A stretch of DNA of 64,000 nucleotides, from assembly GCF_002305895.1 (NCBI RefSeq), contig NZ_CP022203.1:4256501-4320500 (forward strand), read 5' to 3'. Source of the DNA: Corallococcus macrosporus DSM 14697. GTDB lineage: Bacteria; Myxococcota; Myxococcia; Myxococcales; Myxococcaceae. Each line of letters begins with the position of its first letter. The first letter of the stretch is position 1. Shown piece after piece: positions 11,701-64,000 of the stretch. The position numbers and the translations under genes are program-made. Below the pieces are notes generated by a model. The model searched no databases. It saw only the letters and a list, made by a program, of their open reading frames with translations, and had not been told where the DNA came from.

Positions 11701-13304
11701 CCGTGGACGGCCGCGAACGGGAGGACCACGCCCGCTTGCTGCGCGCGCTGGAGGCCCGGGACTTCAAGGTGGAGCGCGTCGTGTATCTCTGGAGCCTGGA
11801 TGAGTCCGGAGCGGACTTCGATGAGGCCCAGGCGCGCGGCTTCTTCGGTGTGCTGCGGCTGGCGCAGGCCCTGTCCAGCGTGGAGTCGCCCGCGCCCGTG
11901 GAGTTGACGGTGGTGGGCCGCGAGGCGCTGGAGGTGGAGAGCGCCGACGCGGTGGCTCCCGAGCGCGCCACGCTGCCGGCGCTGTGCAAGGTGATTCCGC
12001 AGGAGCTGGACACCGTGGCCTGCCGTTACGTGGACGTGCGCGCTCCCTCGGTGGACGTGCTGCTGCGGGAAGTCACATCGGAGGCCCTGGAGCCCGTGGT
12101 GGCCTGGCGTGGAGCGCACCGGCAGGTGCAGGCGTACGAGCCGCTGCGCATCGAAGCGGACACTCCGGTGACCTGGCCCCTCAAGCAGCGCGGCGTCTAC
12201 CTCATCACGGGCGGCCTGGGCGGGGTGGGGCTGCGGATGGCGGACCATCTGGCTCGCACGAAGCAGGCTCGGCTGGTCCTGGTGGGGCGCACCGGCGCGG
12301 AGAAGGACGTGGATGGGCGCCGCCTGCGCGCGGTGCGGGCGTTGGAGGCCGCGGGCGCGGAGGTGCTGGTGGCTCGCGCGGACGTGGCGGATGAGGCGCA
12401 ATTGCGCGCGGTGCTGGCGGAGGTGGACGCCCGCTTCGGAGCGCTGGATGGCGTCATCCACGCGGCGGGGCTCGCGGGTGACGGCGCGGTGGCGTTGCTG
12501 GGCGGGATGGACCCGGCGACGTGCGCGCCGCACTTCCGGGCGAAGGTGCATGGCACGTACGCCCTGGAGCGAGCGCTGGCGGGCCGCACGCTGGACTTCG
12601 TGCTGTTGGTGTCCTCCAACGCCACCGCGTTGGGCGGGCTGGGGCTGGGCGCCTACGCGGCGGCCAACGCCTTCCTGGACGCCTTCGCGGCGGCGCGCTC
12701 GGGGCGGGGCGGCACGCGGTGGTTGAGCACCAACTGGGACGGCTGGCCGCTGGATTCAGCCGAAGGCGCGAAGGCCATCCAGACCAGCATCGACCAGTTC
12801 GCCATGACGCCCGCCGAGGCGGTGGAGGCCTTCCGCCGCGTGGTGGAAGCGCCGCTGGAGGGGCAGGTGCTGGTGTCCACGGGCAACCTGGACGCGCGCG
12901 TGGCGCAGTGGGTGCGGCGCGAGGGCGCGGGGGCGAAGAAGGACGCGGGCGGCGCGTTGCACTCGCGGCCCATGCTGGGCACCGAGTACGTGGCCCCCAC
13001 CGATGACGTGGAGCGCGCGCTGGTGCGCGTGTGGCAGGAGCAGTTGGGGCTGGAGCAGCTTGGCATCCACGACAACTTCTTCGACCTGGGAGGCAATTCG
13101 CTCCTGTGGCTGAAGATTGTCGGGCGCATGAAGCGGGAGCTGGGGCGGGATGTCCCCCTCACCAGCGTCTTCGAGGCCCCCACCGTGGCCACGCTGGCGA
13201 AGAAGCTGGGACAGGGGCCCGCCCCCGCGGAGAGCACCGCCGCCTTCGAGTCCAGCCAGAGCCGCGGGGCGCAGCGCAGGGAGCGCCGCAGCCGCCGCGA
13301 GTAG
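8778..13304 (+). CDS. Type I PKS module KS-AT-KR-ACP
   Basis: Single-module polyketide synthase of 1508 residues. KS at about 15-440 with Cys in TGCSTSLVATH (near 186), VEAHGTATPLGDP and NVGHLDAAAG; AT with FPGGGAQYPDMG, GHSLGEY (near 631) and VAAHS at the specificity/His position; KR with GLGGVG (near 1146) and intact active-site residues: Ser in VSSNAT, Tyr and Asn in YAAANAFLDAF (Tyr 1293); ACP with LGGNSLLWL (Ser near 1440). This is the only one of the three KRs in the window with a complete active site, so it should give a beta-hydroxy intermediate. No LDD motif is visible in the KR. The C-terminus is an arginine-rich tail (RGAQRRERRSRRE) that looks like a docking segment. ATG 8778 has AGAGG upstream. 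The next PKS gene begins 48 bases downstream. Confidence 0.95.
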   Translation: MGRHTRYEGDASLAVAIVGMAARVPGAEDVDAFWRLLREGREAITFFTSEAMKALGVEPGWLANPNFVKAAPVLERPGRFDAALFGYAPREAELLDPQHRIFLECAWAALEHAGYAPGRVQVSTGVFAGSSLSSYLLFNLLSRAEFQQAEDTFPAMVGNDKDFLATRVAYHFNLKGPALTVQTGCSTSLVATHLACQSLLGYQCDVALAGGVSVHMPQRAGYHYQDGGISSPDGHCRAFDAKGQGTLFGSGAGVVVLKRLEDALNDGDTVHAVIRGSAINNDGAMKVGFTAPGVEGQSEVIARAQAVAEVSPESISYVEAHGTATPLGDPVEVQALTEAFRAGTDKRGFCGLGSVKTNVGHLDAAAGVTGLLKTVLALEHGELPPSLHYEKPNPRIDFENSPFYVNATLKPWPEGDTPRRAGVSSFGIGGTNAHVILEEAPVTLPGDAARPWQLLVLSAKTPSALETQTAALLAHLQAHPEQQLADVAWTLQVGRRPMELRRVVVCEDRASAVAALESKDPQRIFTLAPGNGTPSAVFMFPGGGAQYPDMGRGLYASEQVFQEAVDRCCELLRPRLGFDLRPVMYPDAANATEAAQRLKRTSLALPALFTVEYAVARLWLSWGVKPEALIGHSLGEYAAACLAGVFSLEDALALVVLRGKLFEELPGGGMLSVPLPEAELRPLLGASLSIAAMNGPAQCAVAGAVEAVEALAAELTKREVEFRRIPIDVAAHSHLVEPILARFQSFVGTLTRNAPTLPIVSNVTGTWMTPEEAVDPVYWTRHLRQTVRFGDGVRTLAARPGRVYLEVGPGRTLGTLARLQLNGPKAPAVLSSLRHPQDPVPDDAFLTTTVGRLWASGVEVDWSAVHGGTRRLRVPLPTYPFEGQDYWLAPEASSSRGRGVARKSADVAGWFYLPSWQRAPLLPKAGPVTPRGWIVYQDAGGVGAALAARLEQQGHRVVRVTPGPGFRQVAERDFTVDGREREDHARLLRALEARDFKVERVVYLWSLDESGADFDEAQARGFFGVLRLAQALSSVESPAPVELTVVGREALEVESADAVAPERATLPALCKVIPQELDTVACRYVDVRAPSVDVLLREVTSEALEPVVAWRGAHRQVQAYEPLRIEADTPVTWPLKQRGVYLITGGLGGVGLRMADHLARTKQARLVLVGRTGAEKDVDGRRLRAVRALEAAGAEVLVARADVADEAQLRAVLAEVDARFGALDGVIHAAGLAGDGAVALLGGMDPATCAPHFRAKVHGTYALERALAGRTLDFVLLVSSNATALGGLGLGAYAAANAFLDAFAAARSGRGGTRWLSTNWDGWPLDSAEGAKAIQTSIDQFAMTPAEAVEAFRRVVEAPLEGQVLVSTGNLDARVAQWVRREGAGAKKDAGGALHSRPMLGTEYVAPTDDVERALVRVWQEQLGLEQLGIHDNFFDLGGNSLLWLKIVGRMKRELGRDVPLTSVFEAPTVATLAKKLGQGPAPAESTAAFESSQSRGAQRRERRSRRE

Positions 13305-13352
13305 GGCGCCCGCCCGCGCTCCTTCGAATCGAGAGAACCTGGAGACAACACC

Positions 13353-16300
13353 TTGGACAACCAGCTCCCGCAGGAGTTCGACGACGCCGACGTCGCCATC
13401 ATCGGCATGGCAGGGCGCTTCCCCGGCGCCCGGGATGTGGCCACGCTGTGGGCCAATCTCCGTGAGGGCGTGGAGTCCATCCGCTTCTTCACCCTGGAGG
13501 AGGCGCGCGCCGCCGGTGTGCCGGAGGCGCGGTTGGAGGACCCCGCCTTCGTGAGGGCCGCCGCCATCCTGCCGGAGCCCGAGTCCTTCGACGCGGCCTT
13601 CTTCGAGATGCCACCGCGCGAAGCGGAGATCACGGACCCCCAGCACCGCGTCTTCCTGGAGTCCTGCTGGGAGGCGCTGGAGCACGCGGGCTACTCACCG
13701 CGTGACTACGCTGGCGCCATCTCCGTCTTCGGTGGCGCCACGCTCAACACGTACCTGCTGATGAACCTGGCGCGGAACCCCCGGGTGCTGGAGTCCTTCG
13801 AGCCGGTGCAGGTGAACATCGGCAACGGGGGCGACTTCCTGGCCACCCGCGTCTCGTACAAGCTCAACCTGCGTGGCGCCAGCCACACCGTGCAGAGCGC
13901 GTGCTCCACGTCCCTGGTGGCGGTGCACCAGGCCTGCCAGAGCCTGCTCAATGGCGAGTGCGACATGGCGCTCGCGGGCGGCGCGTCCGTCAACGTGGGC
14001 TTCTTCAACGGCTACCGGTACGCGGAGGGGGGCATGGCCTCGCCGGACGGGCACTGCCGGCCCTTCGACGCGAAGGCGCAGGGCACGCTCTTCGGCAGCG
14101 GCGCGGGCGTGGTGCTGCTGAAGAAGCTGCGCGCCGCGGTGCGGGACGGCGACACCATCCACGCCGTCATCAAGGGCTCGGCCACCAACAACGACGGCGG
14201 GCTGAAGGCGGGCTTCACCGCGCCCAGCGTGGACGGCCAGGCGCAGGTGGTGGCGGAGGCGCTCGCGGCTTCCGCCCTGGAGGCGGACGACATCAGCTAC
14301 GTAGAGGCCCACGGCACCGCCACGCCGCTGGGCGACCCCATCGAGGTGCAGGCGCTCACCAAGGCCTTCCGCGCCACCACCCAGCGGCGGCGCTTCTGCG
14401 CGTTGGGCTCGGTGAAGGGCAACCTGGGCCACCTGGACGCCGCGGCGGGCATCACCGGCCTGATGAAGACGGTGATGGCGCTGAAGCACGGCGAGCTGCC
14501 GCCCAGCCTTCACTATGAGCGTCCCAACCCGGCCATCGACTTCGAGGCCAGCCCGTTCTACGTCAACGCCACGCTCAAGCCCTGGCCCGCCGGGGAGGCG
14601 CCTCGGCGCGCGGGCGTGAGCTCCTTCGGGGTGGGCGGCACCAACGCGCACGTGGTGCTGGAGGAGGCCCCCCGCTTGCCCGCGAGCGCGCCCTCGCGGC
14701 GGCCCTGGTATCTGCTGCCCTTGTCGGCGCGTACGCCCTCTGCGTTGGAGGCGGTGACGACGCGGCTGGTGGAGGCGCTCAAGGACTCGCGGAGCGCGAA
14801 TCTGGAGGACGTGGCGTGGACGCTCCAGGCCGGGCGTCAGCGTTTCCAGCACCGTCGCTTCGTGCTGGCGAGGAGCGCGGAGGACGCGGTCGGCGCGTTG
14901 TCGGAGCCCCAGGGGCCTCGCGTCTTCACCGAGGCGCAGGACGCGGTGGAGCGGTCCGTGGCCTTCCTCTTTCCGGGGCAGGGCTCGCAGCACGCGGACA
15001 TGGGCCGGGCGCTGTACGAGGCGGAGCCCGTCTTCCGCGCCGAGGTGGACCGGTGCGCGGAGCTGCTGAAGCCGCACCTGGACGGACTGGACCTGCGGAC
15101 CGTGCTGTACGCCCGGCCCGAGGCCGCCGAGGTGAGCGGGGCGAAGCTGGTGCGGACAGCGCTCACGCAGCCCGCGCTCTTCACGGTGGAGTACGCCACC
15201 GCGCGCCTGTGGATGTCCTGGGGCGTGGTGCCTCAGGCGATGTTGGGGCACAGCATCGGTGAATACGTGGCCGCGTGCCTCGCGGGCGTCTTCTCGCTGG
15301 AGGACGCGCTGCGGCTCGTGGCCGCGCGAGGGCGGCTCATGCAGGGCCTGCCGTCCGGCGCGATGCTGGCGGTGCCGCTGTCCGAGGACGAGGCGCAGCC
15401 CTATCTGCGCGCGGGCGGAGCCGGGCTGAGCCTGGCGGCCCTCAACGGGCCCATGCAGTGCGTGTTGTCCGGGACGCACGACGCCATCGATGCGGCGCGG
15501 AAGTCGCTCCAGGAGGCGGGAATCCAGTGCCAGCCGCTGGTGACGTCGCATGCCTTCCACTCGGCGATGATGGACGCCATCCTGGAGGACTTCGCCGCGC
15601 AGGTCGCCACGGTGCCTTTGGCCGCGCCCACGCTCCCGTTCGTCTCCAACGTCACCGGGACCTGGGTGACCGCGGAGCAGGCGACGAGCCCCCGATACTG
15701 GGCCGACCACCTGCGCGGGACGGTGCGCTTCGCGGACGGCCTGCACGCGCTCTTCTCCGATGGCAGGCGCGCGCTCCTGGAGGTGGGCCCGGGGCAGGTG
15801 CTCGGGAAGCTGGCGAAGCGCCACCCGGCCTTCACGGCCGCGCACGCGGTGCTGGCGTCCATGCCGCCGCCCAAGGATGACGGGGCCTCCGCTGGGGCGG
15901 CGCCGCTGGCCTATGAGACGCTCGGCCGGCTCTGGCAGGCAGGGGTGCGGGTGGACTGGAAGGGCTTCCATGGCGCGGACCTGCGCTACCGGGTGCCGCT
16001 CCCCACGTATCCCTTCGAGCGCCAGCGCTTCTGGATTGAACCCGCCGACGTCGAGCCGCTGCCTCGTGTCACGAACGCCGCCCAGCCCGTGGAGACAGCG
16101 CCTGAAGCCGCCGCGCAGGCGGAGCCGGTGGGAGAGGCCACCAGCGCACGGCCAACCCAGCCGCGTCCGCAGTTGCGCAGTGCCTATGTCATGGCGAGCA
16201 CGCCCCTCCAGCGTTCGTTGGTGGAGCTGTGGCAGGAGATGCTCGGCGTGGCGCCCATCGGCATCCAGGACAACTTCTTCGAACTCGGCGGTGACTCGCT

Positions 16301-16538
16301 CATCGCCGTGCAGCTCAGTGGCCGCATCAAGAAGCAACTGGGCCTGGACCTGCCCGCATCGAGCCTCTACGAAGGCGTCACCGTGGAGGCCCTGGCGGCG
16401 TTGCTGAAGCCGGCGGAGGCGGAGGTTCAGGAGCGCCGGGAGGAGGCGCCAGCGGCGGATGCGTCGCTCCTGCGCCGCAAGCAGACCCTGGCGCGGCAGC
16501 GCGACCTTCGTCGCTTCGATGACGACGATGATGCATGA
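13353..16538 (+). CDS. Type I PKS module KS-AT-ACP
   Basis: Polyketide synthase module of 1061 residues without reductive domains; it should leave a beta-ketone. KS Cys in SACSTSLVAVH (near 184), VEAHGTATPLGDP, NLGHLDAAAG; AT with FPGQGSQHADMG, GHSIGEY (near 632) and HAFHS, the pattern usual for malonyl-CoA; a linker rich in Ala, Pro and Glu; ACP with LGGDSLIAV (Ser near 980). It starts at TTG 13353, preceded by GGAGA at 13341-13345; the first downstream ATG lies inside the conserved KS start (IIGMAGRFPG), so it is not a credible start. The N-terminus is acidic (EFDDADV) and the upstream protein ends in a basic tail, which fits docking between the two. The C-terminal tail has a basic helix-like stretch followed by FDDDDDA. 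Same transcription unit as the 8778 gene. Confidence 0.94.
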   Translation: MDNQLPQEFDDADVAIIGMAGRFPGARDVATLWANLREGVESIRFFTLEEARAAGVPEARLEDPAFVRAAAILPEPESFDAAFFEMPPREAEITDPQHRVFLESCWEALEHAGYSPRDYAGAISVFGGATLNTYLLMNLARNPRVLESFEPVQVNIGNGGDFLATRVSYKLNLRGASHTVQSACSTSLVAVHQACQSLLNGECDMALAGGASVNVGFFNGYRYAEGGMASPDGHCRPFDAKAQGTLFGSGAGVVLLKKLRAAVRDGDTIHAVIKGSATNNDGGLKAGFTAPSVDGQAQVVAEALAASALEADDISYVEAHGTATPLGDPIEVQALTKAFRATTQRRRFCALGSVKGNLGHLDAAAGITGLMKTVMALKHGELPPSLHYERPNPAIDFEASPFYVNATLKPWPAGEAPRRAGVSSFGVGGTNAHVVLEEAPRLPASAPSRRPWYLLPLSARTPSALEAVTTRLVEALKDSRSANLEDVAWTLQAGRQRFQHRRFVLARSAEDAVGALSEPQGPRVFTEAQDAVERSVAFLFPGQGSQHADMGRALYEAEPVFRAEVDRCAELLKPHLDGLDLRTVLYARPEAAEVSGAKLVRTALTQPALFTVEYATARLWMSWGVVPQAMLGHSIGEYVAACLAGVFSLEDALRLVAARGRLMQGLPSGAMLAVPLSEDEAQPYLRAGGAGLSLAALNGPMQCVLSGTHDAIDAARKSLQEAGIQCQPLVTSHAFHSAMMDAILEDFAAQVATVPLAAPTLPFVSNVTGTWVTAEQATSPRYWADHLRGTVRFADGLHALFSDGRRALLEVGPGQVLGKLAKRHPAFTAAHAVLASMPPPKDDGASAGAAPLAYETLGRLWQAGVRVDWKGFHGADLRYRVPLPTYPFERQRFWIEPADVEPLPRVTNAAQPVETAPEAAAQAEPVGEATSARPTQPRPQLRSAYVMASTPLQRSLVELWQEMLGVAPIGIQDNFFELGGDSLIAVQLSGRIKKQLGLDLPASSLYEGVTVEALAALLKPAEAEVQERREEAPAADASLLRRKQTLARQRDLRRFDDDDDA

Positions 16539-16553
16539 CGACGGCGTGGGGGG

Positions 16554-17792
16554 TCAGGGCGTCTTGCGAATGCGAGCGTTCTGCGTGCCGCCGGCCGCCA
16601 TGGCCATGGCCACGCGTGAATAGGCAGACACGTACGGCTGAAGCACGGTGCGTGACCACCGCCCCGGAATCCACAGGTAGCTGTACAGCCCGTGCCGGCG
16701 CGCGCCCCTGCGCCGCTTCGTCTCGTATCCGCTGGCGCCCAGCCAGAGCTTCTTGGCGCCGAGCGCGTAGGCCCGGCGCAGGGGCTCGTAGAAGGCGAGG
16801 TTGAAATACAGCGGTGTCTCGGAGGCGCCGGCCTCGGCGCGGCCGACCCGGTAGAACCACAGCTCCTCGTGCTTTTGCAGCAGCAGGGAGAAGCCGATGG
16901 GGGCGTCGTGCTGGTAGGCGACCACGGCCTCCGCCTCGGGCGAGACGTGTTGGTCGAGCGCGGTCCAGAACGCGGAGGGGTGGCGGAGGTGCTCGTTGCC
17001 GTACTTGGAGTACGTCACCTCGTAGAACCGCTCCAACTGCTCCGCCATCGCGCCCATTTCAGTGATGCGCTCGAAGCGGACGCCCGCGTCCCGGGCGTGG
17101 GCCATCTCCTTCTTGATGACGCGCCGGACGTCGCTCTTGAACTGTCCCAGGTACGCGTCGAAGGTGTCCCCCGGGACGTCGATGACGTTGTCGTCGTAGA
17201 TGAAGACCTCCTGGAACGCCGCCGCGTTGAGCGTCTCTCTCAGCGTCGTGTCGTCCTGGGGCACGCCATAGAAGTAGAGCGGCAGGCGCTCCTCGGTCGC
17301 GAGCTCCCGGAGCCCTTGAAGGATGAGCTCCCGGGCCTGCGTCGCGAGCTCCGCCGACGGCGCGGCGCAGTGGATGCTGCTCCGCATGCTGAGCGGGCTG
17401 GTGACGAACACGCCTCCCTCGAAGCCGGCGCCGGCGCGCCAGGCCACGTTACGGTAGAGGTCCGCCGCCGCGATGGCCACCCGGCTCCAGGCTGGACCGT
17501 TGGCGAAGCCCTTCCTCCAACTGGTGAAGAGGAAATGCTCCAACGAATAGGGCGTGTAGATGGTCTTGCTGCGGGTGATGAAACACGGGCAGAGCGCGAT
17601 GGGCGTGCCCTGCTGATAGGCAATGGCATATCGCAGGGACAGCGCCCCCCGGGCCATGGCGGACAGGTCGACCGCGTCCAGCATCCGGAACCAGCGCCGG
17701 CCGAAGAAGACGCTCGACTCCGAGGTGAGGACATCCAGCTCCGCGTCACTCAGGTGGCTGACGGAGTCGTGGAATTTCAGGGTAAGCGTCAT
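16554..17792 (-). CDS. FemAB-like / GNAT-fold transferase
   Basis: Protein of 412 residues resembling the FemAB-like (peptidogalycan-type) GNAT superfamily: a first half with FGRRWFRMLD and a C-terminal acyltransferase-like half with FKSDVRRVIKKEMAHAR, FYEVTYSKYG, PIGFSLLLQKHEELWFYRVG and LYFNLAFYEPLRRA. Family members transfer acyl or aminoacyl groups to amines; FemABX relatives use aminoacyl-tRNA. No signal peptide or membrane span. It converges on the PKS gene ending at 16538 (15 bases apart) and follows the GST gene by 31 bases in the same direction. A tailoring acyl- or aminoacyl-transfer step on the cluster product is plausible but inferred. Substrate unknown. Confidence 0.72.
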   Translation of the reverse strand: MTLTLKFHDSVSHLSDAELDVLTSESSVFFGRRWFRMLDAVDLSAMARGALSLRYAIAYQQGTPIALCPCFITRSKTIYTPYSLEHFLFTSWRKGFANGPAWSRVAIAAADLYRNVAWRAGAGFEGGVFVTSPLSMRSSIHCAAPSAELATQARELILQGLRELATEERLPLYFYGVPQDDTTLRETLNAAAFQEVFIYDDNVIDVPGDTFDAYLGQFKSDVRRVIKKEMAHARDAGVRFERITEMGAMAEQLERFYEVTYSKYGNEHLRHPSAFWTALDQHVSPEAEAVVAYQHDAPIGFSLLLQKHEELWFYRVGRAEAGASETPLYFNLAFYEPLRRAYALGAKKLWLGASGYETKRRRGARRHGLYSYLWIPGRWSRTVLQPYVSAYSRVAMAMAAGGTQNARIRKTP

Positions 17793-18581: not shown

Positions 18582-20888
18582 TTGAAGCCCGAAGCACCCG
18601 CGCTCGTTTCTCTTGCTCCAGGAATGGCCCTGTGGCCCTGGGCCGCGCTGCGTGGCGCCGGCTTCCCCGTCCAGGACGCGCTCCGGCTCGCCGCGCCCAC
18701 GGCGTCCTCCGCCGCCGATACATGGCTCGCCGCGGGAGCCGAAACACCGGGTGACGCACTCCGCACCGCGTTCGACGCGGACCTGTTGTCCATCAGCGCC
18801 GCATTGCGTGCCCTGGCGGGGGAGCCACACCTTCGCGAGGCGCTCGTCTGGCAGAACCGCCACGCCTACAAGACGGGGGTCGAGCCACTGGCGGCCCTTC
18901 CCGCCACCGCGCGCAACAGCAAGGCCCGGCAGCGCGAGCGCCTGGTGGCCTCCTATGTCCAGCGCTACAGCACCAAGAACGACACCATCGGCTTCTTCGG
19001 CCCGGTGGGGTGGGCGCGGCTGACGCCGTCGAGCGACGCGCTGCGCTGGGTTCCTGGAGAGCAGCTCGTCTCGCGACGGACGGTCTACTTCGAGACGTGG
19101 TGCATGGACACGCTCGGCGCGGCGCTGGCCCAGGATGCGTCCCTGAGACGCTGGGCGGCGCCCCGGCTGCTGCCGTATTTCAGGCTGGAGGGCCACCTGC
19201 TTCACGGCCCCATGCCCACGCCCGTGGAGCTGAGCCCGGAGCAGGCACAGTTGCTCTCACGCTGCGACGGCACGGTCAGCGCCGCGGCGCTCGCGCGGGA
19301 GTTCGCCGGGGGTGACAGCTCCGCCTTCGCCAGTGAGGAGGACCTCTACTCGGCGCTCGAACAGGCCGTGGGTTTCGGCGTCCTGCTCTGGGGCTGGCAG
19401 GTGCCGCTCGTGGTCCGGCCGGAGGTGGTGCTGCGGGGCGCGCTGCTGGCCATCGGGGACGCGGACGCGCGGGCCCGTGCGCTCGCGCCGTTGGAGCAGT
19501 TGGAGCGCGCGCGGGCCGCCGTCGAAGCCGCGGCGGGCGCACCCGAGGCGCTGGACGCCGCGTTCGCGGAGCTGGAGCGCGTGTTCAACGACGTGACGGG
19601 CGCGGCGCCAACTCGCGCGGCGGGGCAGACCTACGCCTCGCGGACGCTCATCTACGAGGACTGTGAGCGGGATGGCTCGCTGGAGCTGGGCGCGCCGTTG
19701 TGCGAGCGGCTCGGTCCCGTGCTGGAGCTGGTGTTGACCGGGGCGCGCTGGCTGGTGGGGGAGGTGACCCGCGGCACCCGCGCGAGCCTGGACGCGCTCT
19801 TCGACAAGCTGTCCGAGGGCGGGGCGCCGGTGTCGCTCACCACGCTTCAGCTCGCCTTCGTCCAGGGGCTCCAGAACCCGGCGACGACGGAGCAGATGAT
19901 GCCCGTGGCCCAGGCCGTCGCCGAGCATCGGCGGCGCTGGCGGGAGCTCTTCGCGCTGGAGGCCGGCGTCCGCCGCCAGTCGCGCACCGTCGAGTCGCTG
20001 CGTCCCAAGGTGCGTGAGGCCTTTGGAGCGGCCGGTCCCGCGTGGCGGAGCCGCTGGCATGCCTCGCCGGACGTGATGATTGACGCGGCGAGCGAGGCAG
20101 CGGTCCGCGCCGGGGACTACCAGCTCGTGTTGGGGGAGCTGCACCTGTGCAACAGCATCTCCTCGCTCTTCGTGGAGCAGCACCGGGCGCCCGAGGAGCT
20201 CTTCGCGCTCGCGGAGCGCTGTGCCACCGGGGCGGACGTCGTCCCGGTGTTCCCCAAGGCCGAGTGGAGCCAGCGGACCTTGCCGTGTCTGTTCCCGCGT
20301 GACAGCCAGTACTACCTCTCCGGGCAGGAGCCATCTCCGCGGCCGGACGTCCGTGCCCTCCGCGCGGGCGACATGGTGGTGGAGCGGCGGGACGGCGGGC
20401 TGGAGGTCCTCGACCGCGTGAGCGGACGCCGCTTCGGCCTGGTGGAGTTCATGGCCGTCTTCCTGGAGCAGCGGTGCGCCAGCATCTTCGACCTGGCGCT
20501 CACCGATGGGTACTCGCCTCGGGTGACGGTGGACGGCGTGGTGGTGGCCCGGGAGCGCTGGAGCGTGCCGGTGGCGAGCCTGGGGTTCGCGGGCCTCACG
20601 GAGGCGCTGACCCAGTGGCTGGAGGCGCGGCGCTGGCAGCAGGCGCAAGGCATCCCGCGCTTCGCGTTCTTCAAGGTCGCGACGGAGCGCAAGCCCTGCT
20701 TCGTGGACTTCGACAGCCCCTTGCTGGTGGAGATGATGGCCAAGCTGGTGCGGCGGTCCGCGGAGGCGTCGCCGGATTCTCGCGTCCAGTTCTCGGAGAT
20801 GCTGCCGGACCCGGAGCACCTCTGGCTCACGGATGCGGCCCAGCGCCGCTACACCAGCGAGCTGCGGCTCGTCTGCGAGATGTCCTGA
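18582..20888 (+). CDS. LanB-like (lantibiotic dehydratase N-domain) protein, stand-alone
   Basis: Protein of 768 residues related to the N-terminal glutamylation domain of LanB lantibiotic dehydratases. The best landmark is LREALVWQNRHAY followed by YVQRYSTKNDTIGFFGP, matching the family block that in classical LanBs reads R-x-x-x-R-x-x-PFG. The length fits only that domain; the C-terminal elimination (SpaB_C-type) domain is absent. In the family this domain moves an amino acid from aminoacyl-tRNA to a peptide, and small LanBs lacking the elimination domain include the PEARL peptide-aminoacyl-tRNA ligases. No precursor-peptide gene is visible nearby, so the substrate may be an assembly-line product (inference). 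Start TTG 18582 has AAGGGG nine bases upstream; ATG 18624 is an alternative. The ATP-grasp-like gene follows 55 bases downstream. Confidence 0.7.
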   Translation: MKPEAPALVSLAPGMALWPWAALRGAGFPVQDALRLAAPTASSAADTWLAAGAETPGDALRTAFDADLLSISAALRALAGEPHLREALVWQNRHAYKTGVEPLAALPATARNSKARQRERLVASYVQRYSTKNDTIGFFGPVGWARLTPSSDALRWVPGEQLVSRRTVYFETWCMDTLGAALAQDASLRRWAAPRLLPYFRLEGHLLHGPMPTPVELSPEQAQLLSRCDGTVSAAALAREFAGGDSSAFASEEDLYSALEQAVGFGVLLWGWQVPLVVRPEVVLRGALLAIGDADARARALAPLEQLERARAAVEAAAGAPEALDAAFAELERVFNDVTGAAPTRAAGQTYASRTLIYEDCERDGSLELGAPLCERLGPVLELVLTGARWLVGEVTRGTRASLDALFDKLSEGGAPVSLTTLQLAFVQGLQNPATTEQMMPVAQAVAEHRRRWRELFALEAGVRRQSRTVESLRPKVREAFGAAGPAWRSRWHASPDVMIDAASEAAVRAGDYQLVLGELHLCNSISSLFVEQHRAPEELFALAERCATGADVVPVFPKAEWSQRTLPCLFPRDSQYYLSGQEPSPRPDVRALRAGDMVVERRDGGLEVLDRVSGRRFGLVEFMAVFLEQRCASIFDLALTDGYSPRVTVDGVVVARERWSVPVASLGFAGLTEALTQWLEARRWQQAQGIPRFAFFKVATERKPCFVDFDSPLLVEMMAKLVRRSAEASPDSRVQFSEMLPDPEHLWLTDAAQRRYTSELRLVCEMS

Positions 20889-37999: not shown

Positions 38000-55136
<17,137 letters not shown>

Positions 55137-55144
<8 letters not shown>

Positions 55145-58100
55145 GCTTGATGACGTGCAGGGCGAGGACACCAGCAGCGACATCGCGGTCATCGGCATGG
55201 CGGGCCGCTTCCCGGGGGCCCGCGGCCTGGCGGACTTCTGGAGGAACGTCCGCGAGGGCGTGGAGTCCATCTCGTTCTTCTCCGAGGACGAACTGGAGCG
55301 CTCGCCGCTCATCCCTGAGGAGCTGTGGCGGCACCCGCGCTTCATCCGCGCGGGAGGCATCCTCGAAGGGGCGGATGACTTCGACCACGGCTTCTTCGAC
55401 ATCCCCCTGCGCGAGGCGCAGTGGATGGACCCCCAGCAGCGCGTCTTCCTCCAGTGCGCCTGGGCCGCGCTGGAGGACGCGGCGTATGACCCCACGCGCT
55501 ACAAGGGGCGGATCTCGCTCTACGCGGGGGCGGGCGCGTCAGGCCACCTGCTGAACCTGCTGAGCGAGGCGCGGAAGGACGCCGGCGCGGGCCTGGAGCT
55601 GGCCACGGCGGGGCCGGAGAGCCTGGCGATGAAGGCGTCCTTCAAGCTCCAGCTCCGCGGGGAGAGCGTGGCCGTCTACACGGCGTGCTCCACGGGGCTG
55701 GTGGCCATCCACATGGCCTGCCAGAGCCTGCTGACGCGGCAGTCGGACATCGCGCTCGCGGGCGCGGTGCGCATCGCCAGTCCCCAGCGCACGGGCTACC
55801 TGCACCAGGACGGGCTCATCTTCTCGCCAGACGGTCACTGCCGCGCCTTCGACCACCGCGCGGGTGGCACCGTGGCGGGCAACGGCGCGGGCGTGGTGGT
55901 GCTGAAGCTGCTGTCGGACGCGCTGCGGGACGGTGACCACGTCCACGCCGTCATCAAGGGCTCCGCCGTCAACAACGACGGCCAGCAGAAGGTGGGGTAC
56001 ACGGCGCCGAGCATCGAGGGCCAGACGGAGGTCATCGCGGATGCGCTGGCCTATGCGGGCCTGGGGGCGGACGACATCGGCTATGTGGAGGCCCACGGCA
56101 CGGGCACGTCCCTGGGCGACCCCATTGAAATCTCCGCGCTGACGCGCGCCTTCCGGAAGACGACGGAGCGCACGGGCTTCTGCGCCATCGGGTCGCTGAA
56201 GACGAACCTGGGGCACCTGGACGCGGCGGCGGGCGTGGCGGGCTTCATCAAGGTGGTGCTGTCGCTCCAGCACGGCGAGCTGCCGCCGAGCCTGCACTTC
56301 GAGCGCCCGAACCCCGAGATTGACTTCGAGCGCAGCCCCTTCTTCGTCAACACCGCGCTCACCGCGTGGCCCCAGGGCAACGCCCCGCGCCGCGCCGGGG
56401 TGAGCTCGTTTGGCATCGGCGGGACGAACGCCCACGTCGTGCTGGAGGAGGCGCCCCCGGAGGCGGCGAAGGCGCGCGGCCAGCGTCCATTGCACGTGGT
56501 GTCGCTGTCCGCCCGGACGCCGTCCGCCCTGGAGGTGATGGCGCGCGAGCTGGCCGCGCACGTGGTGTCCACGCCGGGGCTGGCGCTGGAGGACGTGGCC
56601 TTCACGCGCAACGTGGGGCGCCGCGCCTTCGAGCACCGGCGGGCGGTGGTGGCGGCGGACGCGGCCGAGCTGGCGGAGCGCCTGCGCAAGCCCGCGGCGG
56701 TGGAGGCGGGGCGCAACCGCCGGGTGGCCTTCCTCTTCCCGGGGCAGGGCTCGCAGGCGGTGGGCATGGGGCGCGAGCTGCATGCGACGGAGGCGGGCTT
56801 CCGGAAGGACGTGGACGCGGCGCTGGCGAGGCTGGAGCCGTCGCTGGCCGCCGAGGTGCGGGCGCTCCTGTTGCCCGCGAAGGGACAGGAGGACGCCGCG
56901 GCCCCGAGGCTGTCGGACCCGCGCGTCGCGCTGCCCGCGCTCTTCATCGTCGAGCACGCGCTGGCCCGGCTCTGGATGTCCTGGGGCGTCCGCCCCCAGG
57001 CGTTGTTGGGGCACAGCTTCGGGGAGTACGCCGCGGCCTGTGTGGCCGGTGTGCTGTCGCCGGAGGACGGGCTGCGCCTCGCGGTGGTGCGGGGCGCGCT
57101 CATGGCGCGGATGCCCGCCGGTGCGATGCTCGCGGTGGGCCTGGAGGAGGCGGAGGTCCTGCCGCTGCTGTCCGATGGGCTCGCGCTGGCGGCCGTCAAC
57201 GGGGAGGGCCGATGCGTCGTGTCCGGCCCCGTGGCGGCCATCGAGGCGCTGCAGGCCACGCTGGCGAGCCGGGGCGTGGGCATGGTCCGGCTCCCGTCCG
57301 CCCACGCCTTCCATTCCAGCGCCGTGGAGTCGCTGATGGCGGACCTGGCGCGGGTGGTGTCCTCGCTGCGCCTCAAGGCGCCGGAGCTGCCCTTCGTCTC
57401 CAGCCTGACGGGGACGTGGATTCGCCCGGAGGAGGCCGTCGACCCCACGTATTGGGCCCGCCAGATGCGCCAGCCGGTGCGCTTCGCCCAGGGCCTGGAG
57501 ACGCTGCTCGGGGACGGCTGCAGCGTGCTGCTGGAGGTGGGGCCCGGGACGGACCTCACGTCACTGGCCCGGGCTCGGACGCGCAAGGAGCGACACCTGG
57601 TTGTGACGCCCTCGCTGCGCCGCCGTCCCACGGAGGAGGACCTCCGCGGGCTCTTGCAGTCCGTGGGCGACCTGTGGGCCGCGGGGGTCGACGTGGCGTG
57701 GGACAAGGTCCATGGCGCGGAGGCGCGCCGCCGCGTCTCGCTGCCCACGTACCCCTTCGAGGAGAAGCCGTGCCGCCTGGAGTCCTCGGGCGCGCCGCTG
57801 GTGGTGCCCGCGACGTCCGCGCGCTCCACTCAGCCGGGGACGGCGCCAGGGCCCACCGTCACACCGGAGGCCGTGGCGCCCGCGTCCGTGGGGGAGATCC
57901 AGCAGCGCGTCATGGACATCTGGCGTGAGCGTCTGGGCGCGGTGGAGGTGGGGCCGGACGACGACTTCCTGGAGCTGGGAGGCAACTCGCTGATGGCGGC
58001 GCAGATGCTCACCCGCCTGCGGGAGACCTTCTCCGTCCAGCTCCCCCTGAGCGCGCTGTTCGAGGCGCCCACCGTGGCGGGCATCTCCGCGCGCATCGAG

Positions 58101-60818
58101 GCGATGCTCCAGGCGGCGCACCCGGCGGAGGGTGGGGCGGCCTCGGAAGCGATGGTGCGCATCGACCGCGCCGGCGAGCTGCCCCTGTCCGTCGTGCAGG
58201 AGCGGGTCTGGCGGATGGAGCAGCTCGACCCGGGCAACCCGTCCCTCAACATGCCGCTGGCGGTGCGCGTCTCCGGCGCGCTGGACGTTCCGGTCCTGGA
58301 GCGGAGCATCAACGAGGTCATCCGCAGGCACGAGATGCTGCGCGCGACGTACCGCGAGGAGGCGGGCCAGGTGCGGCAGCGGTTCGTCGCGGAGGTCCGC
58401 ATCCAGGTCTCCGGGGTGGACCTGCGGAGCCACGCGGGGGACCGCGAGGCGGAGGCGCTGCGGCTGGCCCTGGAGGAGGCGGTGCGGCCGTTCTCGCTGG
58501 AGCACGGGCCCATCGTCCGCGCCAGCGTGCTGCGGCTGGCCGAAGCCGAGCACCTGCTGCTGCTGACGGTTCACCACATCGCGGCGGACACGCTGTCCAT
58601 GGTGGCCTTCTTCCGCGAGGCCGCCGCGAACTACCACGCGTTCCTCGAGGGCAGGCCCGCGCCGTTGCCGGAGCTGGCGGTGCAGTACGTGGACGCGGCG
58701 GCCTGGGAGCGCCGCTCGCTCGCGGGGGGCTCGCTGGCGGCGCAGGAGGCCTACTGGCGCGAGGTGCTGGCGGACCTGCCGCCGTCGCTGGAGCTGGCCT
58801 CGGACAGGCCGCGTGGGACGGACTCGCGCCTCCGGGGCGCGCGCTTCCCCGTGGCCTTCCCGGCGGGGCTCAGCGCGGCGCTGGTGGCGTTCAGCCAGCG
58901 CGAGGGGGTGACGCCCTTCATGACGTTGCTGGCGGCCCTGTCGTCGGTGCTCGCCCGTTACTCCGGGCGCGAGGACATCGTGGTGGGGACGCCGGTGGGC
59001 AACCGCGCGCGGGGCGAGCTGGAGCCGCTCATCGGCTTCGTGGCCCACGCCATGGCCCTGCGCACCGACCTGTCCGGTGACCCGACGTTCCGCGAGCTGG
59101 TGGCCCGGGCCCGGGAGACGACGATTGGCGCGTCCAGCCACCAGGACGTGCCCTTCGAGCATGTGCTGCCGCGCGTGGCCCCGGGGAGAGACCCGGCGCG
59201 CTCGCGCCTGTGCGACGCCGCGCTGGTGCTGCACGCCCACGTCGCCACGGCGCCGCCTTCCGTGGCGGGCCTGGACATGGCGTTGGTGGAGGTCCCCGGG
59301 ACGCCCGCGCAGTTCGGCGCCACGCTCGGCGAGCTGACGCTGCTGCTCAACGAGAGCGCCGCTGGCGGCTTCCACGGCTTCATCGAGTACGCCACCGACC
59401 TCTACGACGAGCCGCGCATCCAGCGCCTGTCCGCGCACCTCCAGACGCTGCTGGGCGCGGTCCTGGCGGATCCCGAGCTCCGGGTGTCGCGGATGCCGCT
59501 GGCCACGGACGAGGAGCGGCGCGCGTCGCTGGCAGGGCTCGGGGCCCGGAGCGTCGCGCCTGGCGCTCCGGCGCTGCTCGGCCCGGGGAGCGCGGGCGGG
59601 GCTGAGCCGGTGTGGGGGGAGGGCGTCCTGGCCCGGCTGGCGTCGTGGGTGGCGCGGACCCCCGACGCGGTGGCGATCAGCTCGGGAGGGCGCCGCCTGA
59701 CGTGGCGGGAGCTGGCGGCTCGGGCCCAGGGGATCGCGGCCCGCTTGAAGCAGGAGGGCGTGGGTGTGGACGTGCCGGTCGCGGTGCGCGTCACGCCGTC
59801 CGTGGAGACCCTCATCGCGCTTTGGGGGGTGCTGGGCGCGGGCGGGGCCTGCCTGCCGGTGACGGCTGGAGACGTCGCGGAGCTGGCGTCACTCCTCCCC
59901 GCGCAGGGGCCTCGGTGGTTGCTGGTGTCCCGGGAGGCGGACGTGCCGGCCCTGCCGAAGGGCGTCCGGGCGCTCGCGGTGGCGTCGGTCGAGGCGGGGG
60001 ATGCGGCGGTGGAGTTCGTGCGCTCCGGGCAGTTGGCCTTCATCGTCCCCGCGCCCGACGCGCTGGGGGGCCGGGGCCGCGTCATGTTGAGTCACCTCAA
60101 CGTGGCGCAGGTCCTGGCGTCCATGGACGCGCGGCTGGACGTGGGTGAGGGGGCGTGTGGTTGGCGGCGGGCGGCCCTGCGTCGGACCCGGCGGGACTGG
60201 ACCTGTTGTGGGCGCTGGCCCGCGGCATGCGGGTCGTCGTTCCTCCCGAGCCCCTCGCCGCGCGCTTCGCGGTCCTGGGCCGCGAGCCGGACACGCGGCG
60301 CCCCCTGGACTTCAGCCTGTCCTACTTCGCCAATGACGAGGACTCGCTGGGCGAGGAGAAGTACGAGCTGCTGCTCGAAGGCGCGAAGTTCGCGGACGCG
60401 CATGGCTTCTCCGCCGTCTGGACGCCGGAGCGCCGCTTCCACTCGTTCGGCGGCCTGTACCCGCAGCCCTCGGTGGTGGGCGGCGCGCTGGCGATGCTCA
60501 CGCGCCGCGTGCAGATTCGCGCGGGCAGCGTGGTGCTGCCGCTCCATGACCCCATCGAGGTCGCCGAGCAGTGGTCCGTGGTGGACAACCTGTCTCGTGG
60601 CCGCGTGGGGTTGTCGTTCGCCACGGGGTGGCACGCGAACGACTTCTCGCTGTCGCCGGGCACCTTCGACCGCAGGCGCGAGGTGCTCATCGAGCGTCTG
60701 GAGGAGGTGCGGCGGCTGTGGCGGGGCGGCACGGTGCTGCGGCGCAACGGGGCCGGCCACGAGGTGGAGCTGGCGCTGCGGCCCAAGCCGAAGCAGGCGG
60801 AGCTGCCGGTCTGGCTGA
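55137..60818 (+). CDS. Hybrid PKS-NRPS KS-AT-ACP-C-A(degenerate), 5' part before frameshift
   Basis: Reading frame opened by ATG 55137, overlapping the NRPS stop by 8 bases (coupled translation; GAGG at 55122-55125). Domains: KS (about 12-440; Cys in TACSTGLVAIH near 184, VEAHGTGTSLGDP, NLGHLDAAAG), AT (FPGQGSQAVGMG, GHSFGEY near 625, HAFHS), ACP (LGGNSLMAA, Ser near 950), C (about 1012-1445, HHIAADTLSM), then an A domain whose P-loop block reads LAFIVPAPDALGGRGRV instead of TSGSTG-x-PKG. Genuine coding similarity ends near residue 1671: after 60150 this frame gives Arg/Ser/Trp-rich nonsense to the stop at 60818, while the meaningful sequence continues in the frame starting at 60155. The two parts are almost certainly one gene in which one G is missing, or a recently broken gene. 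Confidence 0.85.
60149..60153 (+). other. Apparent one-base frameshift in a run of five G
   Basis: Before this run the coding frame starts at positions divisible by 3 (ATG 60123: MDARLDVGEG); after it the frame is shifted by -1 (GTG 60155, TGG, TTG: VWLAAGGPASDPAGLDLLW). The joined sequence aligns with MDARVGAAPGTWLAVTSVSF...LELLW of the first MOx-bearing A domain. One added G in the run restores a single open frame. A sequencing or assembly error is most likely. Confidence 0.8.
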
Positions 60819-63800
60819 CGTCCACCGGCAACCCGGAGACCTTCCGGAAGGCGGGCGAGGTGGGGGCGGGCATCCTCACCAACGTGCTGGGCCTGGGCTC
60901 CAACCTGGACGAGCTGGCGGCGAAGGTGGCGCTGTACCGCGAGACGTACCGCAAGGCCGGGCACCGGTCCGGACGGGGCCAGGTCACGTTGATGCTCCAC
61001 ACCTTCCTCGGCGAGGACCTGGACGCGGTGCGCGAGGCGGTGCGCGAACCGCTGCTGCGCTACTTCCGCAGCTCGGTGGACGTGTTCGCCAACCTGGTGG
61101 CCAGCCAGGGCCTCCAGGTGGACGTGCGAGGCCTCACGCCGGAGGACGTGGAGGTGATGCTCGCCCAGGGGGTGGAGCACTACATCCGCGAGGGCGGCCT
61201 CTTCGGCTCGGTGGAGGACTGCGCGCGCGTGGTGGAGCGCGTGCGCGCCCTGGACGTGGACGAGATTGCCTGCCTCGTCGACTTCGGCGTCGAGCTGGAG
61301 CCGATGATGTCCAGCCTGCGCCTGCTGGACGTGCTGCGGCAGCGCAGCCAGGTGCGGGCGCCGCCGGCCGAGGCGGTGCTGACGGAGGGGGACGCCGGGT
61401 CCGGCGCGTTGTTGGCGCTGGTCCGCGACGAGGGCGTCACCACGCTGCGCTGCGCGCCGTCCCAGGCGCGCGCGCTGGCGGCGCTGCCCGGGGCGGAAGA
61501 CGCTGTGCGCGGCGTCCGCCTCTGGGTGCTCGGCGGCGACCCCGAGCGCGTCACCCCCCCGGCGCGGAGCGTGACGGTGGAGGCCTCCCTGGTGGGGGCG
61601 GCGTGGCCGTCCGCCGCGTCGGCGCCCGCGTATGTGCGGGACGCCTCGGGCGAGCCGGTGCCCGTGGGCGTGGTGGGGGAGCTGGCCCTGGGCGGCGCGG
61701 CGGTGCCGCTCGGCTTCTGGAACGACGCCGAGGCCACGCGGGCGCGCTTCATCACCGTCCCTGGCACGGGTGAGCGCTTCTTCGTGACGGGCCAGAAGGC
61801 CCGCTTCCGCGCCCCCGGCGAGGTCGAGCTCGTGGCGCCCGGACGTGCGACGAAGGCGCGGCGTCCAGCCGCGCAGCCGGCTCGCGACACGGTGGGGACG
61901 CGCCCCGCCGCCGCGCGGGCGGTGGTCCCGGACGCGCCCTCCGCGACGTCCACGCCGGTGGTGCGCGTGGGTCGGGACAAGCCGCTGCCGCTGTCCTTCC
62001 CGCAGCAGCGCATCTGGTACCTCCACCAGCTCGATCCGGCGGGCATCGCGTACAACAACACCGTCACGCTGCGGCTCGACGGCGCGGTGGACGAAGGACT
62101 CCTGGAGGCCGCGCTGAACGCGCTGGTGGACCGGCATGAGGTCCTTCGCACCACCTTCGCGCTCGAGGACGGAGGCGCGCATCAGGTGATCGCGCCGTCC
62201 ATGCCGCTGGTGCTGGAGCGGCTGACGGCGCGCGGGGAGACGCTGGCGGCGCGCGAGGCGGATGCCCTGACGCTGGCCCTGGCCGAGGCGCGCAAGCCCT
62301 TCGACCTGGAGCACGGGCCGGTGATGCGGGCCGTGCACATCCGTGTCGGCGAGGCCGTGTCGGTGTTGCACCTGACGCTGCATCACATCGCCTCGGATGG
62401 CTGGTCCGGAGGCGTGCTCTTCCGCGAGCTCGTGGCGGGCTATGGGGCGCTCGCGGCGGGCCGGCCGTCGCCGCTGCCCGAGCTGCCCGTGCAGTACGCG
62501 GACTACGCCGCGTGGCAGCGCGGGTGGCTGGAGGGGCCAGGCATGGAGGCCCAGCTCGCGTACTGGAAGCAGCAGCTCGCGGGCGCGCAGGTGCTGGAGC
62601 TCCCGACGGACCGACCTCGCCCCGCGCGGTGGACGGGGCGGGGCGGCCGGCTCGGGGTCTCCGTGGACAAGCCGTTGATGGACGCGGTGTGGGCGGTGGG
62701 CCGCCGCGAGGGGGCCACGCCCTTCATGGTGCTGACGGCGGCGTTCCAGACGCTGCTGCACCGGTACTCGGGGCAGGACGACATCATCGTCGGGACGTCC
62801 GCCGCCGGCCGCAACCGGCCCGAGCTCGAAGGGCTCATCGGCTGCTTCCTCAACACGCTCGCCATCCGGGGCGACTTCTCCCGGGCGCCCACCTTCGTGG
62901 AGCTGCTCCGTCAGGTGAAGCGGGCGTCGATTGGCGCATACGCGCACCAGGAGATTCCGTTCGAGCGGCTGGTGGACGAGCTGCGCGTGCCGCGTGACCC
63001 GAGCCGGATGCCCCTGGTCCAGGCGATGCTCACGTTCCACAACACGCCGCCCGTGGAGGTCCGCACGCCGGGGCTGGGCGTGAAGATGCTGGAGCTGGAC
63101 ATCGGCGCCACCAAGGTGGACCTGTCGCTGGAGCTGCGGGAGACGCCGGAGGGCCTCACGGGGGGGCTGGAGTACCCGGCGGACCTGTTCGACCTGTCCA
63201 CGGTGGAGGCGCTGTGGGAGCGCTTCGTGCGGCTGCTCCAGGGCATCGCCGCGAACCCGTCGCGGCGGGTGTCGGAGCTGCCCCTGCTGTCGGAGGTGGA
63301 GCGTCAGCGGATGCTGGTGGCGTGGAATGACACCCGCGCCCCCGTCCCGGAGGGCGCGACCCTGCATGGCCTGTTCGAGGCGCAGGCCCGGCGCACGCCC
63401 GACGCGGTGGCGGTGGTGGCCGAGGCGCAGCGCCTCACGTACGCCGAGCTGGACGCCCGGGCCAACCAGCTCGCGCACCACCTGCGCACGCTGGGCGTGG
63501 GGCCGGAGGTCCGCGTGGGCTTGTGCGCGGAGCGCACCGCGGAGCTGGTGGTGGGGCTCCTGGGCGTGTTGAAGGCGGGCGGCGCGTTCGTCCCGCTGGA
63601 CCCCGCCTATCCCACGGCCCGGCTGACGCACATGATGCGGGACGCCGGCCTGTCCGTGGTGGTGACGGTGGACGCCATCGCGGACGTGCTCCCCGCCGGG
63701 GGCGAGCTGCTCGTCGCGCTGGACGCGGAGTGGGGCCACATCGCGCGCAACCCCGTGGAGCCACCCCAGGTGGGCGCGCTGCCGGAGCACCTGGCATACG

Positions 63801-64000
63801 TCATCTACACGTCCGGCTCGACCGGCGTGCCGAAGGGCGTGCTGGTGCCGCACCACGGGCTCTGCAACACCCTGGGCACCGTCATCCGCGCCCATGGCGT
63901 GGGGCCGGGGCGGCGCGTGCTCCAGGCGGCGGCGCTCGGCTTCGATGCGTCCGTGCTGGAGGTGCTGTCCACGCTGGTGGCCGGGGCGGAGCTGCACCTC
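60155..64000 (+). CDS. Hybrid PKS-NRPS, 3' part after frameshift: MOx, degenerate A, C-A...
   Basis: Open to the window end (about 1282 residues). Order: end of the A4-like block, luciferase-like MOx2 (60302-61350), a rudimentary second half of the A domain (61370-61860) in which YGPTE, YRTGD, the A8 hinge and the A10 lysine are all unrecognisable (A7 reads FFVTGQKARF), an Ala/Arg/Pro linker without any PCP, a condensation domain (61980-63270; HHIASDGWSGG) and a normal-looking A domain (from 63330; YTSGSTGVPKGV, then FDASVLEVLS) cut by the window edge. A TGA at 60146-60148 closes this frame just upstream, so it cannot start earlier on its own; GTG 60155 has no ribosome binding site. It is best read as the continuation of the gene starting at 55137. 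Confidence 0.85.
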   Translation, partial: MWLAAGGPASDPAGLDLLWALARGMRVVVPPEPLAARFAVLGREPDTRRPLDFSLSYFANDEDSLGEEKYELLLEGAKFADAHGFSAVWTPERRFHSFGGLYPQPSVVGGALAMLTRRVQIRAGSVVLPLHDPIEVAEQWSVVDNLSRGRVGLSFATGWHANDFSLSPGTFDRRREVLIERLEEVRRLWRGGTVLRRNGAGHEVELALRPKPKQAELPVWLTSTGNPETFRKAGEVGAGILTNVLGLGSNLDELAAKVALYRETYRKAGHRSGRGQVTLMLHTFLGEDLDAVREAVREPLLRYFRSSVDVFANLVASQGLQVDVRGLTPEDVEVMLAQGVEHYIREGGLFGSVEDCARVVERVRALDVDEIACLVDFGVELEPMMSSLRLLDVLRQRSQVRAPPAEAVLTEGDAGSGALLALVRDEGVTTLRCAPSQARALAALPGAEDAVRGVRLWVLGGDPERVTPPARSVTVEASLVGAAWPSAASAPAYVRDASGEPVPVGVVGELALGGAAVPLGFWNDAEATRARFITVPGTGERFFVTGQKARFRAPGEVELVAPGRATKARRPAAQPARDTVGTRPAAARAVVPDAPSATSTPVVRVGRDKPLPLSFPQQRIWYLHQLDPAGIAYNNTVTLRLDGAVDEGLLEAALNALVDRHEVLRTTFALEDGGAHQVIAPSMPLVLERLTARGETLAAREADALTLALAEARKPFDLEHGPVMRAVHIRVGEAVSVLHLTLHHIASDGWSGGVLFRELVAGYGALAAGRPSPLPELPVQYADYAAWQRGWLEGPGMEAQLAYWKQQLAGAQVLELPTDRPRPARWTGRGGRLGVSVDKPLMDAVWAVGRREGATPFMVLTAAFQTLLHRYSGQDDIIVGTSAAGRNRPELEGLIGCFLNTLAIRGDFSRAPTFVELLRQVKRASIGAYAHQEIPFERLVDELRVPRDPSRMPLVQAMLTFHNTPPVEVRTPGLGVKMLELDIGATKVDLSLELRETPEGLTGGLEYPADLFDLSTVEALWERFVRLLQGIAANPSRRVSELPLLSEVERQRMLVAWNDTRAPVPEGATLHGLFEAQARRTPDAVAVVAEAQRLTYAELDARANQLAHHLRTLGVGPEVRVGLCAERTAELVVGLLGVLKAGGAFVPLDPAYPTARLTHMMRDAGLSVVVTVDAIADVLPAGGELLVALDAEWGHIARNPVEPPQVGALPEHLAYVIYTSGSTGVPKGVLVPHHGLCNTLGTVIRAHGVGPGRRVLQAAALGFDASVLEVLSTLVAGAELHL
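60302..61350 (+). other. Embedded luciferase-like monooxygenase domain MOx2 in degenerate A domain
   Basis: About 350 residues closely similar to MOx1: FSLSYFANDED, AVWTPERRFHSFGGLYPQP, AGSVVLPLHDPIEVAEQW, ATGWHANDF, WLTSTGNPETFRKAGEVG, DEIACLVDFGV. No obvious loss of conserved positions relative to MOx1, in contrast to the surrounding A domain, which has lost its catalytic motifs. It is probably an active FMN-dependent oxygenase held on a dead A-domain scaffold (inference). Confidence 0.88.

Follow-up and report, generated by a model that had tools for sequence, protein, structure and literature searches.

Flavin-dependent monooxygenase (MOx) domains set inside the adenylation (A) domain of a nonribosomal peptide synthetase (NRPS) module are known from MtaG and MelG, where the MOx is inserted between a4 and a5 and hydroxylates the glycine loaded by its own A domain (PMC10204066, PMC11342130). 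The locus described here raises the question of what such an oxygenase acts on when the A domain around it has lost the means to activate an amino acid. It lies in a stretch of 64,000 nt (the window) of the DSM 14697 genome, which is assembled as one contig of 8,973,512 bp. Pfam and profile searches give the domain order KS-AT-ACP-C1-ψA(N)-MOx-ψA(C)-C2-A, where ψA stands for the degenerate A domain. The features, in window positions, are as follows.

55176..56303, + strand: KS; TACST, HGTGT and GHLDAAAG are all kept and the domain looks active
56730..57656, + strand: AT of the malonyl type (GHSFG, HAFH)
57903..58097, + strand: ACP (GGNSL); the interval from AT to ACP is without KR, DH and ER
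58173..59522, + strand: C1, a condensation domain of a distinct clade, between ACP and ψA
58572..58592, + strand: active-site motif of C1, HHIAADT (HHxxxDT, not HHxxxDG), diagnostic of the class II cassette described below
59613..60310, + strand: N-terminal half of ψA, a degenerate adenylation domain inside which the frame switches
60051..60080, + strand: former A3 P-loop, now APDALGGRGR; the P-loop is retained in 0 of 58 class II modules
60149..60153, + strand: five-G run at the frame break, where ORF 54960-60818 gives way to the open frame 60149-64000+
60311..61339, + strand: MOx2, luciferase-like FMN monooxygenase of TIGR04020 (MupA/Atu3671 family), 519 bits against a cut-off of 244
61340..61880, + strand: C-terminal half of ψA; A5 and A7 lost, FFVTGQ, without the A subdomain
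61881..61984, + strand: linker at the expected site of the A subdomain and T, both absent; low-confidence in the model
61985..63316, + strand: C2, a condensation domain with HHIASDG, from the domain search
63374..64000, + strand: start of the next module's intact A domain, which extends beyond the window with Ac and T
41441..44245, + strand: class I comparison module, intact and glycine-type: A (41441-42049)-MOx1 (42134-43060)-A (43169-43969)-T (44051-44245)

The initial annotation regarded the A domain around MOx2 as dead by comparison with an intact glycine A domain in the same cluster, and the DNA bears this out. The A3 region has become APDALGGRGR, GPTE is gone, FFVTGQ stands in place of TGD, and the A8/A10 region is absent; the comparison domain (41441-43969) is indeed intact and of the glycine type, and has a MOx and a T of its own. 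The reported loss of a C-terminal lysine region is real but understated, as the whole A subdomain and the next T domain are missing, and C2 comes directly. None of the marks of a functional A domain (P-loop, GPTE, TGD, A10) is present in the window ψA, and no glycine selection can be read from it, the motifs with the selectivity residues being gone. The A-core fold on both sides of the oxygenase identifies the arrangement as a MOx insertion in an NRPS A domain.

We gathered MOx regions from the window genome, its relatives and GTDB contigs, and parsed their domains with one common seed set. Apart from a few others, these regions fall into two classes: class I is C-A-MOx-A-Ac-T, and class II, to which the window module belongs, is KS-AT-ACP-C1-ψA-MOx-ψA'-C2-A-Ac-T. 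Class II comprises 58 distinct modules from Myxococcus, Corallococcus, Pyxidicoccus, Archangium and one Myxococcaceae MAG; class I ranges more widely, also into Chloroflexota, Cyanobacteria, Actinomycetota and others. Among distinct modules the A3 P-loop is kept in 66/69 of class I versus 0/58 of class II, A5 (GPTE) and A7 (TGD) are each kept in 69/69 versus 0/58, a T domain precedes the next C in 67/69 versus 0/58, and no class II module keeps A8 or A10; the class II counts come from related sequences of one clade and do not represent independent events. An AT-T(ACP)-C arrangement lies directly upstream of all 53 class II modules that could be judged, versus none of the five judgeable class I modules. 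The earlier proposal that amino acid activation has been abandoned thus extends to the entire class, and none of its 58 modules has a fully functional A domain at this position.

The class II MOx domains form a single clade with support of 100/99, recovered in all bootstrap trees, which divides into four deep subclades: the window's cluster, a 3.8-kaa synthase, a group with ψA deletions, and myxoprincomide-like giants. The largest of the subclades sits in giant NRPS/PKS ORFs (15473 aa in genome G006). Class II is one ancient, conserved family, larger than the window locus. Chance or strain-specific decay is ruled out as its origin, since the architecture is shared by 58 distinct modules and by the orthologues of the window locus. 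Plain adjacency to a PKS module does not explain it either: loci L080 and L152 are intact class I modules further downstream of a PKS module. In both of these the AT-to-C interval is larger than in class II, and the C domain of L152 carries HHxxxDG.

In the window, ψA is interrupted by a frame switch near 60149: the upstream parts lie in ORF 54960-60818 and MOx onward in the open frame that begins there. Third-position GC moves between the frames at about 60120-60170 and is high both before and after the break. In other species, orthologues with 80-90% identity are open through ψA, mostly within one ORF of about 4,400-5,000 aa (4440 aa in L043). The myxoprincomide-type giant synthase of the window genome is also split, near a five-C run, into 9067 and 6433 aa versus 15473 in G006. 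Both breaks lie at or near five-G or five-C runs, though such runs are common at 72% GC. The DSM 14697 genome is a PacBio RSII/HGAP assembly, from whose annotation the authors took out suspected frameshifted genes (PMC5629066). Because the orthologues are open, the assembly is PacBio-based and the giant synthase is likewise split, the break near 60149 is most likely an assembly indel; it may instead be a true strain-specific lesion. A programmed frameshift as the purpose of the break is unsupported, the orthologues being without it. Three class II loci, namely the window (60149-60153), L011 (7947-8010) and L049 (5663-5813), have their frame broken in or close to the C1-ψA stretch; two of the three are in the PacBio-only window genome, and the third, in genome G010, is without a five-G/C run. 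The two halves of the window's ψA were analysed separately, and structure and rates were taken from open-frame orthologues.

An AlphaFold2 model computed from an orthologue and 25 class II sequences is of moderate confidence (mean pLDDT 70.4, pTM 0.55). In it, residues 34-781 align to NRPS A domains; the match to the A domain of LgrA covers 360 residues at a Z of about 34. Close pairs gave dN/dS ratios of 0.067 (MOx), 0.073 (C1), 0.20 and 0.21 (the two ψA halves) and 0.39 (linker); across all orthologue pairs the medians are 0.16 (MOx), 0.14 (C1), 0.24 and 0.26 (ψA halves) and 0.36 (linker). In intact class I modules, used as a control, the N-terminal part of the A domain gives 0.22, its C-terminal core part 0.13-0.15, and MOx 0.07-0.13. 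With values of about 0.20-0.26, ψA therefore stays near the 0.13-0.27 obtained for the A parts of intact class I modules. It changes more quickly than MOx does, and its C-terminal half more quickly than that of an intact A domain; both halves are far from neutral, and neutral decay of ψA is ruled out by these ratios. Judging from the predicted fold, ψA looks like a catalytically dead shell that is held folded.

The initial annotation had described the A domain as a scaffold and supposed that only the oxygenase was selected for. The scaffold idea captures part of the result. A persisting A-core fold is predicted and purifying selection acts on it, as a scaffold would have it, but in three loci most or all of ψA has gone and MOx has been retained. 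MOx is the most constrained part in close pairs, and ψA is also under purifying selection. The three loci (L050, 6884-8230; L068, 4941-6143; L069, 5386-6669) read C-MOx-C, with 33-35 residues between C1 and MOx. L050 retains a scrap of the C-terminal half of ψA (RLFGTGTPARHR) and L069 retains none, from which we take the ψA-less loci to be later deletions. A weakly supported tree suggests more than one deletion event. The three deletion loci indicate that the ψA shell is dispensable, and that the scaffold idea is half right.

The oxygenase itself is well preserved. MOx2 scores 519.3 bits against TIGR04020 (curated cut-off 244.45) over the full model (1-341/341), which places it in the family, and its best solved relative is PuwE (PDB 6ket, E 8.5e-118). 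The MOx of the orthologue is modelled with an LLM fold, at Z 37.2 to 6ket over 340 residues. MOx2 and MOx1, both in this cluster, share about 51% identity, and the claim that MOx2 keeps the landmarks of MOx1 agrees with 63 positions that are invariant across both classes, 60 of which PuwE has as well; no loss of conserved MOx residues is seen in the class II alignment. In close pairs MOx has a dN of 0.0075 and the lowest dN/dS of the module parts. Only five alignment columns discriminate class I from class II MOx domains; PuwE resembles class I at three of these and neither class at two. Residues diagnostic of substrate and common to class II and PuwE had been hinted at by a smaller set, and they disappeared in the larger set. 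On these alignments the MOx active site does not separate amino-acid-acting from PKS-acting members, and the substrate cannot be confirmed by sequence.

Of the class II loci, 56/59 have an upstream AT of the malonyl type (HAFH), and 60/60 have GGNSL as the ACP motif. A KR was looked for with Pfam in the modules of the window, L043, L050, L044 and L067 and was found in none, L067 being the locus with the longest AT-to-ACP linker. With a malonyl AT and no KR, the chain arriving at C1 should therefore be a β-ketoacyl thioester with a CH2 α-carbon. On the other side of the cassette, the downstream A domains have diverse codes (DVWHxxLVD, DAAxVVEIW and others), and two subclades are only partly readable. 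The class I A domains, as controls, read the glycine-type code DILQ...IW. No glycine-type code was read in the downstream A domains with a regular expression that left several positions unread and is a rough test; to that degree the downstream A domain is rejected as a glycine supplier. The window's synthase gene ends in T-C-C-T, the first of these C domains being a partial, E-like match, and its last module is without an A domain (L043 ORF residues 3394-4389; L005, 3-4733).

C1 carries a signature of its own. At the position that follows the Asp of HHxxxD, 57/57 class II modules have Thr, as do the three frame-broken loci (the window, L011 and L049), which brings HHxxxDT to 60/60 class II loci; among the other C domains compared, which include C2, the motif occurs in 0/190. 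The 21 C1 domains sampled from class II all group together in one supported clade. The shared signature and clade lead us to conclude that C1, ψA and MOx were inherited as one cassette. By analogy with the KS0 that comes after MupA-type α-hydroxylation modules, and because it has no A or T of its own and so no acceptor amine, C1 is probably a non-condensing gate or docking domain. It keeps both His residues and the Asp, and may still be catalysing something.

The reading that we consider probable, arrived at from sequence, is that the locus encodes a non-adenylating cassette at a PKS-to-NRPS junction, in which a MOx derived from a glycine A-MOx module carries out in-line α-oxygenation of a β-ketoacyl-ACP. 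The KR-less KS-AT(malonyl)-ACP module would produce the β-ketoacyl-ACP; the LLM domain of the MupA family would use O2 and FMNH2, the latter delivered by a free reductase, to oxygenate the ACP-bound β-ketothioester at its α-carbon, and the product would probably be an α-hydroxy-β-keto acyl unit; and C2 would couple the α-oxygenated unit to the next amino acid. With no A, no T and no substrate of its own, the MOx would have to act on the upstream ACP. The oxygenase would have been inherited from a glycine A-MOx-A-T module whose A domain is now a dead folded shell and whose T domain is gone. The initial annotation had likewise proposed a PKS-acting in-line oxygenase derived from an NRPS module, and this is still the best reading, given that the cassette always follows AT-ACP-C (53/53) and that the upstream modules checked have no KR. 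More tentatively, one may picture a glycine-oxidising NRPS module that was gutted and its oxygenase re-aimed at the upstream polyketide: its A domain would have died and, in some lineages, been cut out, its T domain would have disappeared, and its C domain would have turned into C1 (HHxxxDT), a non-condensing gate for presenting the β-ketoacyl-ACP to the MOx and so a C-domain counterpart of KS0; we offer this fuller scenario as a possibility to which we would not commit.

Other reactions could be imagined for the same enzyme. The MOx might perform a Baeyer-Villiger insertion or an oxidative C-C cleavage at the β-ketone, giving an ester or a shortened unit: the KR-less module leaves a ketone substrate, and there are Baeyer-Villiger enzymes among the flavin monooxygenases (PMC10952193). 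However, the closest characterised TIGR04020 members hydroxylate the α-carbon (MupA) or are assigned to a 2-hydroxy group (PuwE), and no feature of class II is specific to insertion; we regard this outcome as unlikely, and it is by family precedent only that α-hydroxylation would be favoured over it. Another possibility is that the MOx serves the other neighbour, that is, the aminoacyl- or peptidyl-T of the downstream C2-A-T, or an amino acid loaded in trans. That module comes directly after the cassette, and the ancestral class I function is α-hydroxylation of glycine (PMC10204066, PMC11342130). Against this stand the diverse downstream codes, none of which was read as DILQ...IW in the rough test, the constancy of the upstream PKS module (53/53 judgeable) and the PuwE domain, which is of the same type and serves a PKS chain. 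A downstream target thus seems doubtful to us.

Two further explanations would deny the cassette a reaction altogether. If the frame change near 60149 truly splits the synthase, as the split myxoprincomide-type synthase of the same genome might encourage one to think, the window module would simply be broken and its dead A domain a case of pseudogene decay. Yet the orthologues are open through ψA, third-position GC stays high across the break, dN/dS is well below 1 in all parts, the assembly is of a kind from which suspected frameshifted genes were dropped (PMC5629066), and both breaks of the genome lie at or near five-G/C runs, common as these are; we find a broken module quite improbable. 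A catalytically idle ψA-MOx that served only for spacing or docking between ACP and C2 would agree with the altered C1 and with the absence of any remaining substrate-loading function, but it deserves very little credence, as MOx is the most constrained part (dN 0.0075, close pairs), keeps the 63 conserved positions, and persists where ψA has been deleted.

If in-line α-oxygenation is correct, the locus is a natural case of a substrate-activating module stripped in place to a tailoring function, with intermediate stages visible in living species: a dead but folded A domain, a mostly deleted one, and none. A C domain with HHxxxDT, a ψA-MOx, no T and a KR-less PKS module upstream would then be a signature for predicting an α-oxygenated unit in uncharacterised myxobacterial NRPS/PKS products, and if ψA were annotated as a functional A domain, the predicted product would have one residue too many. 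For engineering, the loci L050, L068 and L069 suggest that a MOx can stand between C domains without an A shell.

Other observations concern neighbouring enzyme types. The window genome has a second kind of PKS-embedded luciferase-like monooxygenase (L008, 10482-14024, minus strand), in a MOx-DH-KR-ACP protein that adjoins a KS-AT protein. In the proteins of L085-L089 (about 900-1360 aa), a divergent condensation domain and a MupA-type MOx make up most of the length; these form a separate MOx class. Elsewhere in the window, a protein with a lantibiotic-dehydratase N-terminal domain (18582-20885, + strand) and a FemAB-like protein (16557-17792, - strand) lie beside PKS genes (8778-16535); the pair possibly performs a PEARL-type or related aminoacyl-transfer step.

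Several characterised systems share parts of the class II arrangement. An A-embedded MOx that acts on glycine and in-line OX domains that act on polyketides are already known, and a PKS-acting LLM oxygenase is, with MupA and PuwE, not new in itself; hydroxylation α to the thioester is described for FMO domains in PKS modules (PMC10204066, PMC11342130). In the open literature that we searched, whose scope does not extend to the original myxoprincomide and myxothiazol papers, a module type with a dead A domain, a lost T domain, an altered C1 and a PKS-serving MOx is undescribed. Class II resembles MtaG and MelG (myxothiazol, melithiazol) and the rest of class I in having an LLM monooxygenase of TIGR04020 inside an A domain. 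It differs in having none of the working glycine-coded A domain, A subdomain and T domain of that type, nor its hydroxylation of its own glycine, and in always following AT-ACP and a C domain with HHxxxDT. In distribution and position the giant class II ORFs fit the myxoprincomide clusters that have been described across Myxococcia (PMC10435759, PMC4902038), which makes these a candidate identity. The cluster in the window is a separate one, about 50% identical to the myxoprincomide-like giants.

In its position class II resembles the PuwE OX domain (puwainaphycin, 6ket), which is located between a PKS and an NRPS module and to which the 2-hydroxy group is attributed (PMC4219810), and the AMT-OX modules of tychonamide/floridanemamide and microsclerodermin, all with an OX that works on the polyketide at the PKS-to-NRPS junction. 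PuwE, however, is without an adenylation shell, is paired with an aminotransferase and falls outside the class II clade; Pfam searches found no aminotransferase in L043 and L050, so that, despite the OX at the junction, these are not PuwE-type AMT-OX modules. In its likely chemistry class II resembles MupA, which α-hydroxylates an ACP-bound β-ketothioester, requires the β-keto group, depends on a separate reductase for its reduced flavin and has a non-elongating KS0 after it (PMC10952193). MupA and OocM are of the same family, TIGR04020, and the unreduced β-keto substrate that they require would be supplied by the KR-less modules of the window, L043, L050, L044 and L067. No KS0 lies downstream in class II, where the next domains are C1, ψA-MOx and C2. 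Whereas MupA and OocM are free-standing enzymes that work in trans in trans-AT PKSs, the class II MOx is placed in cis, inside ψA and beside a pair of C domains.
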